Positions 12,657 through 47,777 of a stretch of 64,000 nucleotides of DNA are shown here, in pieces. The notes beneath the pieces are model-generated. The model worked only from the letters and a program-made list of their open reading frames with translations. It ran no database searches and was not told where the DNA came from. Position numbers and translations under genes: made by a program. Positions within the stretch are counted from its first letter, which is position 1; every line of letters begins with the position of its first letter. Source of the stretch: Limnothrix sp. CACIAM 69d (GTDB lineage: Bacteria > Cyanobacteriota > Cyanobacteriia > CACIAM-69d); assembly GCA_001913845.2 (NCBI GenBank), contig MKGP02000049.1, positions 1 through 64,000 on the forward strand, in the 5' to 3' direction.

Positions 12657-12743
12657 ATGCGGAGTTTGGCGGTTTCTGGCGGACGATCGCCTTAGCTTTC
12701 GATTAGCTTGACCCTACGGTTTTTTCGGGCGTTGGCTGACCTA

Positions 12744-12890
12744 GGGCTTGTTGTCAAATTGCTTACAACCCTGATTCCACTCACTGTTGGCGGATCGTGG
12801 GGGGTAAGGGGCTTAAGCCCCTTGTCTAGGGTGGTTAGGGTATGACAGATCAACCGTTTTCGCTTGCCCCCAGGAAATGACGACAGGCCC
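12744..12890. mobile_element. MITE family A, intact copy at the pdhA stop codon
   Basis: A 147-bp non-coding element flanked by TA on both sides (12742-12743 and 12891-12892). The ends are inverted repeats: GGGCTTGTTGTCAAATT at the left and, read on the reverse strand, GGGCCTGTCGTCATTTCC at the right. The middle holds the palindromic core AGGGGCTTAAGCCCCT near 12807-12822. The pdhA stop codon TAG is formed by the flanking TA plus the first G of the element. There is no transposase frame. TA duplication suits mobilisation by an IS630/mariner-like transposase or a TA-targeting IS5-family group; which one is not known. Confidence 0.85.
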
Positions 12891-13924
12891 TAATCTTCCG
12901 CAAAAATGTACTTGTACAGATCCTTGGGATCCGGTTCAGGGCTGTCTAGGGCAAATTTCACCGCATCGTTCACATGCTCTTGGATTCGGCGATCGATCTC
13001 CTTCAGTTCTTCCGCCTTCACCAATCCTTCACCCAGCAGGTGATCGGCCAGGCGAGTGATCGGATCGCGCTTACTCCAAACTTCCTTTTCTTCCTTTGCC
13101 CGCAGTTCGTCTGGATCAGCCAAGGAGTGACCCCGGAAACGATAGGTCAAGGCTTCAATGACCGTGGGGCCTTCGCCAGCACGGGCCCGGGCGATCGCCT
13201 CTTGGGCAACACCGCGCACCGCCAACACATCCATCCCGTCTACCTCTACGCCGGGCATCCCGAACGCGGGGCCTTTTTTGTAGATTTCGGGCACAGAGGT
13301 GGCACGTTCGTGGGCCATCCCGATCGCCCACTTATTGTTCTCAATGACATAGATCACTGGCAGCTTCCAAAGGGCCGCCATGTTCAAGCATTCAAAGAAC
13401 TGGCCATTGTTCGCGGCTCCGTCCCCAAAGAAGCAAACAGTCACCCCGTCGGAGCTGGGGTCATTCATGGCTTCGCGTCGATACTTGCTTTGGAAGGCAA
13501 CCCCCGTCGCCACCGGAATTCCTTCCGACACAAAGGCATAGCCCCCCAGCAGTCGATGCGGCTCCGAGAACAAGTGCATGGAACCGCCACGGCCCTTGCT
13601 GCAACCCGTCACCTTACCAAACAGCTCTGACATCACTTCCCGGGCGGGCACACCAGCACTCAGGGCATGGACGTGATCACGATAGGTACTAGCCACATAA
13701 TCATTGGCATCGCGGCGCAAAGCCCGAATCACCCCCGTCGAAACGGCTTCTTGGCCGTTATAGAGGTGAACGAAGCCAAACATTTTGCCGCGATAGTACA
13801 TCTCGGCGCACTTGTCTTCAAAAAGGCGACCCAGCACCATGTCTTCGTAGAGCATAAGCCCTTCTTCGCGGGTGACGGTGGCGCGGGTGGTCGGGGTTGC
13901 GGGAAGTACGCGTTCTTGTACCAT
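12890..13924 (-). CDS. pdhA: Pyruvate dehydrogenase E1 component, alpha subunit
   Basis: Thiamine-diphosphate-dependent subunit that, with PdhB, decarboxylates pyruvate to feed acetyl-CoA synthesis. About 344 residues from ATG 13924 ([11 protein letters not shown]); a TTG at 13960 would add 12 residues. The ThDP motif runs from [12 protein letters not shown] near 170 to the ENNKWAIGM stretch near 200. Also visible are [20 protein letters not shown] and the phosphorylation-loop-like [15 protein letters not shown]. pdhB is not adjacent, which is usual in cyanobacteria. The last codons read GAA GAT TAG, and the TAG overlaps the end of a MITE. A probable terminator lies beyond that element. Confidence 0.96.
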
Positions 13925-27243: not shown

Positions 27244-27451
27244 TCAATACAGCCTTTACCTCAAACGATTGGTACGTCAGAGCGCAAATGATACGAAGCT
27301 GTTAGTCGGTGAGCAATGCCCACCCTACAGTCCGCTGTACTTATTAAGCGAGGTAAGGGCTGTATTTTCCACGGGGTTTCCGGTTTTCAGCGTGGGAATT
27401 TTTGGGCAATTTTCCCGGTCACGCATTTCCCACAGGGCCGCTAGGTTGGGA

Positions 27452-45701: not shown

Positions 45702-46634
45702 ATGAGTCGTGGATTTTATATCATCGCCAATGACAAAGTAACGGAACATGCGATCGCGCTGCTCGAAAGTATTCGGGCAACTGATTCCGAAACGCCCGTT
45801 ATGCTCATTCCCTATGATGATCACTACCAAAAGGTTGCCAAAATTCTAAGCGATCGCTTCGGTGTTTTATTATTTGAAGATTTAGAGTTTATTCAACGCC
45901 TTTCCGTTCAACTTCAGAGCATCTTTGGTCAAGAATTTTTCGCTCGCCCAAATCAGTTTCGTAAACAAGCTTGCTGGTTTGGCCCCTTTGATGAATTTCT
46001 CTACATTGACACAGACCTGATTGTTTTTGAGCCGATTATTCAATGCCTTGATGCTCTCTCTGAAGCAGAATTTGTTTGCTATGACTATCAACATGCTGGC
46101 GGCATGAAGGACGTTTTCACATCAACCATCCTAGACCAGGGTGTTTTTACAGAAGAAGATTTGCGGGGAACTTTTAACGGTGGTTTGTGGGGATCTCGCA
46201 AAGGATTAATCACCGAACAAGATTTGTACGACACCTTCGCTGAATGTGCCGCTCACCCCGAATATTTTGATTTTTCTAAGAAAACGTCCGACCAACCCAT
46301 CATTAACTACATGGTTTTGCGGCGATTTCCTAAGCGTTGGAATTGGACACAGCGGCCCGCCAAGGGGCCCGGAAGCTGGGCCGGTAGCAAACATTTTGTT
46401 TGGCAGGGCGATCGCTTGATCGATCCGAAAGTCAACAAGCCCGTTCCCTATTTGCATTGGGCTGGCATTCGACTTCAGCCCGGTTGCCCCTACTGGGAAC
46501 TGTGGGAGAAATATCGGTATTTACACGAACCGAAGCCGACCGTTTCTCCTTTGGCTCCGCCGCCCCCGCGATCGATCTGGCAACGGGCCCTGACCAAGGC
46601 CAAACGCATCCTGAAGCCCCGTCCCAAACGCTAG
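45702..46634 (+). CDS. Glycosyltransferase-like protein (Npun_R2821/R2823-type)
   Basis: A 310-residue protein starting GFYIIANDKVTEHAIALLES after the initial MSR. It has a nucleotide-sugar-transferase-like pattern with the metal-binding DxD in FLYIDTDLIVF near 105, then GTFNGGLWGSRKGL near 160 and DQPIINYMVLRRFP near 195, and a Pro/Arg-rich basic C-terminus (PPPPRSIWQRALTKAKRILK). This is a GT-A fold of the kind found in cyanobacterial exopolysaccharide loci; I recall a family name from Nostoc but cannot check it. The codon use and base composition are more AT-rich than the neighbours up to about residue 200, a possible sign of transfer. Its stop TAG coincides with the left end of a MITE. 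Confidence 0.72.
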   Translation: MSRGFYIIANDKVTEHAIALLESIRATDSETPVMLIPYDDHYQKVAKILSDRFGVLLFEDLEFIQRLSVQLQSIFGQEFFARPNQFRKQACWFGPFDEFLYIDTDLIVFEPIIQCLDALSEAEFVCYDYQHAGGMKDVFTSTILDQGVFTEEDLRGTFNGGLWGSRKGLITEQDLYDTFAECAAHPEYFDFSKKTSDQPIINYMVLRRFPKRWNWTQRPAKGPGSWAGSKHFVWQGDRLIDPKVNKPVPYLHWAGIRLQPGCPYWELWEKYRYLHEPKPTVSPLAPPPPRSIWQRALTKAKRILKPRPKR

Positions 46635-46806
46635 GGCCGATCGCCCGGATTCGCAAACCCTCGGTTCTTACGTCGCAGGATCCGGGGGGGCAAGGCGCTT
46701 AAGCGCCTTGTCTGGAGTGGGTGTTGGTTTAAGGTCGTGATTGATCTGGGATGATCACCCGTTGGCGATCATCACCCGATCGACCCCCTGGAAACCCAGT
46801 CAGCCT
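46634..46806. mobile_element. MITE family A, copy exactly between two convergent stop codons
   Basis: A 173-bp element from the TAG of the glycosyltransferase-like gene (TA at 46632-46633) to the TAA of the polyprenyl synthase gene (TA at 46807-46808). Left end GGGCCGATCGCCCGG and AAACCCT match the family; the right end reads CCCCCTGGAAACCCAG then GCCT. The core GGCGCTTAAGCGCC has two complementary substitutions. A local duplication of GATCATCACCCG-like sequence explains the extra length. Confidence 0.72.
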
Positions 46807-47777
46807 TAGTAAATCCGTTCGATCGCGTAATGTGCCAGCCCCACCAAGGCCTCCCGCGCCGCCGACGGAGCCAACACCATCACATCCTCGATCGCCTGCT
46901 CCACATGATGTTTCGCTAAAGCACGAGACCGCTCAATGCCCTGGCTCGATCGCACCAACTCCAGGGCCGTTTCAATATCGCCCTCCTCTGAAAACTCCCG
47001 CTCGATCGGCCCCTCCAGTTGGGGGAACTCCTCCAGCGCATACAAAACCGGAGCCGTCAGATTGCCGCTGCGCAAATCCGACCCCGCCGGCTTCCCGAGC
47101 ACTTCATCGGAACTGGTGAAATCGAGAATGTCATCCACCACCTGGAACGCCAAACCCACATGGCGACCGTAGCTATAGAGCCGCTCGGCCACCGATCGCT
47201 CCACATCGCTCAAAATCGCCGCCGCCTTGGAACTGTTGGCCACCAGCGATGCGGTTTTGTAGTAGCTCTTTTGCAGATAGGCTTCCAGGGTCAGGCTGGT
47301 GTCAAAGCGATTGAGACCCTGGTCAATTTCGCCCTCCGCCAAATTCATAATCACTTCCGAAAGCAGCTTCACCACTTCCAGATTGTCCAAATTTGCCAAA
47401 TACCAAGAGGACTGGGCAAAGAGAAAATCGCCCGCCAGCACCGCCACCCGGTTATTGAAACGACTGTGTACCGTGGGCACACCCCGTCGCGTTCCGGCTT
47501 CATCCACCACATCATCGTGAACCAAGCTGGCCGTGTGGATCATTTCCGTAATTTCTGCCAACCGTCGATGTCGGGCCGTAATTTCCGCTGACCCCATCGT
47601 GGCCCGGGCCACCAACAACACAATCGCCGGTCGCAAACGCTTGCCGCCTGCACTAAACAAGTGCTCTGCCGCTGCATAGAGGATCGGATGCTTTGCGCCA
47701 ACCAGCTTGCGCAGGTTCATCGTCATGGCATCAAGATCGGCTTCAACCGGAGAAAGCAGGGAAATCGTCGAGGTCAT
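46806..47777 (-). CDS. sds: Long-chain polyprenyl (solanesyl) diphosphate synthase
   Basis: Chain-elongating prenyltransferase that probably makes the C45 side chain of plastoquinone. The 323-residue product has the first aspartate-rich motif LVHDDVVDEAGTRRG near 91, FNNRVAVLAGDFLF, the second DDILDFTSS near 217 and GKRLRPAIVLL near 46. Two small residues before the first motif (MIHTAS) are typical of long-chain enzymes. Length is normal. Its stop codon TAA overlaps the end of the MITE that separates it from the convergent glycosyltransferase-like gene. Confidence 0.93.
   Translation of the reverse strand: MTSTISLLSPVEADLDAMTMNLRKLVGAKHPILYAAAEHLFSAGGKRLRPAIVLLVARATMGSAEITARHRRLAEITEMIHTASLVHDDVVDEAGTRRGVPTVHSRFNNRVAVLAGDFLFAQSSWYLANLDNLEVVKLLSEVIMNLAEGEIDQGLNRFDTSLTLEAYLQKSYYKTASLVANSSKAAAILSDVERSVAERLYSYGRHVGLAFQVVDDILDFTSSDEVLGKPAGSDLRSGNLTAPVLYALEEFPQLEGPIEREFSEEGDIETALELVRSSQGIERSRALAKHHVEQAIEDVMVLAPSAAREALVGLAHYAIERIY

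Follow-up and report, generated by a model that had tools for sequence, protein, structure and literature searches.

How could a single repeat come to lie between two convergent genes in such a way that its ends complete the stop codons of both? The question is raised by one junction in the window, by which we mean the whole stretch of 64,000 nucleotides analysed here (contig C30 of G000, a draft cyanobacterial genome of 4.57 Mb in 100 contigs). A preliminary description had proposed that an element runs exactly from the stop of a glycosyltransferase-like gene (GT) to that of a solanesyl diphosphate synthase gene (sds) and supplies both stops, that its removal together with one TA leaves a CTAG in which the two genes had overlapped, and that its insertion separated them without harming either. 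The features concerned are as follows, with gene models that are simple longest-ORF calls:

45702..46634, + strand: GT gene, an ORF call of the NCBIfam Npun_R2821/R2822 family with a weak Mannosyl_trans3 match.
46632..46634, + strand: TAG stop codon of GT, read from the sequence; TA is the left target copy and G the element's first base.
46632..46808, no strand assigned: copy of the MITE, 177 bp with both target TAs counted (175 bp plus one TA), found with an nhmmer family profile and present as an orthologous copy in the sister species G002.
46691..46710, no strand assigned: perfect palindromic core CAAGGCGCTTAAGCGCCTTG, read from the sequence; the family and the sister have CAAGGGGCTTAAGCCCCTTG.
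46806..46808, - strand: TAA stop codon of sds, read from TTA in the sequence; TA is the right target copy and the third base comes from the element.
46806..47777, - strand: sds gene, an ORF call matching TIGR02749.

GT and sds are thus convergent, with the MITE tract in between. The interval originally given for the element, 46634-46806, marks only the innermost bases of the two stop codons, the full element with its duplicated TA being 46632-46808; strictly speaking, it supplies the third base of each stop, and TA is the duplicated target. The tract is a diverged copy of a MITE of about 146 bp, and its length can be accounted for by a single element that has gained small insertions internally. 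A family profile built from 23 full-length copies matches 46633-46715 (nhmmer, E 2.3e-7 over 1.24 Mb), position 1 of the profile being the T of the GT stop, and the left end of the copy is firmly placed at that TAG. The right arm is more diverged than the left, and the profile match ends at 46715. When the last 25, 40 and 62 bases of the family were freely aligned to 46716-46900, all three finished in the TA of the sds stop, at 46808 (p with the end anchored 0.04, 0.02 and 0.0015, respectively). That stop falls where the protein has its conserved end in relatives. In the sister copy the 62-base tail alone reaches the sds-stop end, with p 0.07 (range over tails 0.07 to 0.38). To judge from these alignments, the right end probably lies at the sds TAA. 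The extent claimed for the element, from one stop to the other, was therefore borne out by the profile on the left and, with less weight, by the tail alignments on the right.

Both arms of the core at 46691-46710 have changed since the split from the sister, reading GGCGC/GCGCC here as against GGGGC/GCCCC in the sister and the family, and the palindrome is still perfect despite these changes. A paired change of this kind suggests that the template was switched inside the hairpin, or that selection acts on the folded form.

The family has inverted ends TAGGGCCTGTCGTCA and a palindromic core CAAGGGGCTTAAGCCCCTTG and is present in many copies in the window and the rest of the genome. The profile gave 134 merged hits in 1.24 Mb of G000, taken as stretches partly picked for holding copies, from which the statistics below also come, and 36 copies have paired TAGGGCCTGTCGTCA-like ends, the left end being clear and the right one diverged in the window copy; plasmids gave no match to the element. 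As expected of a MITE, the family is short, multi-copy and non-coding, is bounded by terminal inverted repeats, and has duplicated TA alone at about a dozen sites that are filled in G000 and empty in G002 (for example, GGGCT-TA-AGCCCC becomes GGGCT[TAGGG...CCCTA]AGCCCC, and GTGT-TA-AGCC becomes GTGT[TAGGG...CCCTA]AGCC). Most targets are YTAR, often CTTAAG, with CCTAGG and CTTAGG also among the empty sites, and a few depart from this pattern (e.g., CTTAT); nine of the 36 paired copies were placed within a palindrome like their own core. We read the tract between GT and sds as a MITE of the IS5 family, non-autonomous, old and diverged; its membership of the repeat family is established. There is also a 193-bp subfamily (e.g., L030 1501-1693) with the same ends and an unrelated interior, and this copy splits a CAAGGGGCTTAAGCCCCTTG palindrome at its middle, where the sister has the palindrome uninterrupted.

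Where the mobilising enzyme might come from is indicated by the outgroup genome G004, in which an 866-bp IS (L350 1471-2336) has ends matching those of the family (TAGGGGGTGTCGTCA...GACGACAGCCCCTA) at a CTTAAG target and carries orfA (DUF4096) and orfB (DDE_Tnp_1) in overlapping frames, both above the NF033580 cut-off. This combination of a DDE transposase between matching ends with a YTAR-type target is that of an IS5-family source, and the enzyme is most likely an IS5-type transposase, of a group that we take to be IS427-like; the G004 element also suggests that the family may be mobilised in trans by a related transposase. The G000 transposase loci found (PF13586, PF01609, PF13358) include none with the family's ends. 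In G004, L350 1424-2472 is a stack of insertions at CTTAAG, in which the IS5-family IS lies inside a MITE palindrome and has two more inverted ends after it. IS630, considered as a source for its TA duplication, was rejected: the IS630-type copy at L287 differs in its ends, which match instead those of a second MITE of the window (27250-27363, TACAGCCTTTACCT...AGGTAAGGGCTGTA), one whose TA site is cleanly empty in the sister.

Family copies continue the flanking TA with G (or A), so that a TAA or TAG hit by the element is rebuilt as a stop codon. For single genes, the claim that insertion at stops is harmless is well founded, with TA-only duplication and a surviving stop at five independent sites that are filled in G000 and empty in G002, one of them in the window:

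12742..12892, no strand assigned: family copy in C30 on the stop codon that ends the right-hand gene (- strand), empty in the sister; TAA becomes TAG.

TAG stays TAG at C10:95928, C53:142981 and C72:45489, and TAA stays TAA at C80:114281, where the element end reads TAAGGC, as it does next to sds in the window copy. Overall, 10 of the 36 two-ended copies lie on a stop codon (28%, some right-hand ORFs at element ends being possibly spurious, e.g., C24:221875, 310 aa), as compared with 9% of all non-coding TA sites (p 0.001) and 15% of YTAR sites (p 0.06). A strong preference for stop codons was set aside on the latter comparison; target choice and tolerance are enough to explain the excess, and the YTAR target accounts for most of it. 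By comparison with the sister, the element at C53:124653-124765 (L197, G000) seems to have taken the place of the right-hand gene's last few codons and to give that gene a new TAG stop, which is remodelling and not preservation.

With one TA between them, the flanks of the window copy read CCCAAACGC-TA-GTAAATCCG (CGC-TA-GTA), which is indeed the predicted CTAG with a TAG stop for both genes. Such overlaps do occur: of 195 convergent pairs in G000, 8 have stops with a common TA, which in five of them forms CTAG. Six of the eight still overlap in G002, and no filled counterpart of the eight was found in G001 or G002. No second exact double-stop copy was found, near cases only, and one double hit among the G000 copies would be unsurprising. 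The near case at L211 16759-16897 (G001) is a family copy between convergent genes with its right end exactly on a TAG stop and its left end 4 bases past the TAA of the other gene.

The history of the junction was read in three genomes of the genus (G000, G001 and the sister G002) and, at both loci, in six outgroups (G003, G004, G005, G023, G028 and G029). G002 has the GT-sds pair with the element in place, in a locus that is 95% identical and an element that is 16-17 bases longer, which places the insertion before the split from G000. Among all nine genomes the adjacency was seen only in these two: in G001 GT keeps the upstream neighbours that it has in the window, a different gene follows and sds is located elsewhere, and the genes are apart in 6/6 outgroups. 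The adjacency in G000 and G002 is therefore probably derived, the pair having probably been brought together by rearrangement. G001 has no family copy at the GT stop nor at the sds stop, and its sds stop is TAA, not TAG; its GT is followed, about 0.85 kb downstream, by a group of family copies nested in one another. An empty GT-sds junction was found in none of the three genus genomes and six outgroups. The preliminary description had looked to relatives for an element-free junction and had taken a different gene order everywhere as grounds for giving up its reading; the only other genome with the pair is already filled, and gene order does differ in G001 and the six outgroups, though not in G002. 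Its overlapping ancestor gains from the shared-TA pairs of G000 and loses from the lack of an empty GT-sds CTAG among the relatives compared, so that its interpretation as a whole is partly supported.

Taken together, the most likely reading, at a probability of roughly 0.5, is that the element entered a CTAG at which GT and sds overlapped at their stops, before G000 and G002 split. An element that inserts at the TA of a YTAR-like target and duplicates TA alone would, on a TA common to two convergent stops, rebuild both; as a general capacity of TA-specific elements with G after TA, such entry into the shared CTAG of convergent genes seems to us about an even bet. The reading is favoured by a left end exactly at the GT stop and a right end at the sds stop, by joined flanks in which both frames stop, by TA duplications between filled and empty sites (five at stop codons), by shared-TA pairs largely kept in the sister, and by the G004 IS with its matching ends, target and transposase. 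It is weakened by the lack of an empty junction, the pair being adjacent only in G000 and the filled G002, by the TAA of sds in G001 and by the weakly conserved right arm. The exact CTAG ancestor and the single insertion event at this junction are what we infer.

Since a rearrangement probably made the neighbourhood, the CTAG state may never have existed. Had the GT stop and the sds stop each already carried a family copy, recombination between the two would equally leave a hybrid between the genes. The separation of GT and sds in G001 and the outgroups would fit this, as would the frequency of copies on single stops (10/36), the nested cluster downstream of GT in G001 and the unequal divergence of the two arms; however, it requires two insertions and a crossover, and G001 has no copy at the stop of either gene. 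We hold it to be a live rival, though a rather unlikely one. A different route, and one that we doubt, starts from the poor right arm: the element may have entered at the stop of GT alone, next to a spacer that was already there, with a right end that has since decayed and an accidental coincidence with the sds stop. While the end of the profile match at 46715, the non-significant right-end match in the sister and the TAA of sds in G001 are all consistent with this, the best right-end placement in the window is the sds stop for three tail lengths, and the total length fits one element with small internal insertions. It is highly improbable that the tract has been retained because it works for the convergent pair as a bidirectional transcription terminator or an RNA hairpin; its RNA folds better than shuffles (z -3.3) and its palindrome stayed perfect through a paired change, but inverted-repeat elements usually fold strongly, and the search of the tract returned no terminator-like site and no Rfam family match.

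At the level of the family, preserved stops at insertions that are empty in the sister are directly supported, and they provide a checkable account of how repeats colonise compact genomes at no cost, the ends of the element restoring the stops that it interrupts. The window case is neat but mostly ordinary, as the family often lands on stop codons unharmed. If insertion into a shared CTAG did take place, it would also show how overlapping convergent genes can become spaced in a single step, and shared convergent stops would be lossless landing sites.

Several known systems are close to the family. MITEs that move by means of IS5-family transposases (NCBIfam NF033580) have in common with it short, non-coding sequences in many copies, inverted ends and direct TA duplication, and an IS in the same family of organisms carries a transposase between matching ends; the difference is that the matching IS lies in G004, whereas no transposase locus found in G000 has these ends. 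Nezha, a MITE of cyanobacteria (cited in PMC10969869), is likened to the window family by class and host, not by sequence. The pneumococcal repeats BOX, RUP and SPRITE are enriched between convergent genes, and BOX encodes the stop codon of 36 pneumococcal genes with no clear truncation (PMC3049150); their sequences differ from the window family, and the parts of that paper drawn on here describe no single element that completes the stops of both genes in a convergent pair. GTAG-REPs, palindromic repeats found in cyanobacteria as well, have termini that often provide TAG stops to flanking genes (PMC3733652), but they are RAYT-linked palindromes of 20-40 bp with terminal GTAG, tied to IS200/IS605-type transposases and without TA-flanked inverted ends of the window family's kind; an assignment of the window element to this class was rejected on its 177 bp and its TA-flanked inverted ends. 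Repeats that supply stop codons are thus already known in BOX and the GTAG-REPs, and what may be new here is only the inferred step by which one element completes both stops of a convergent pair.
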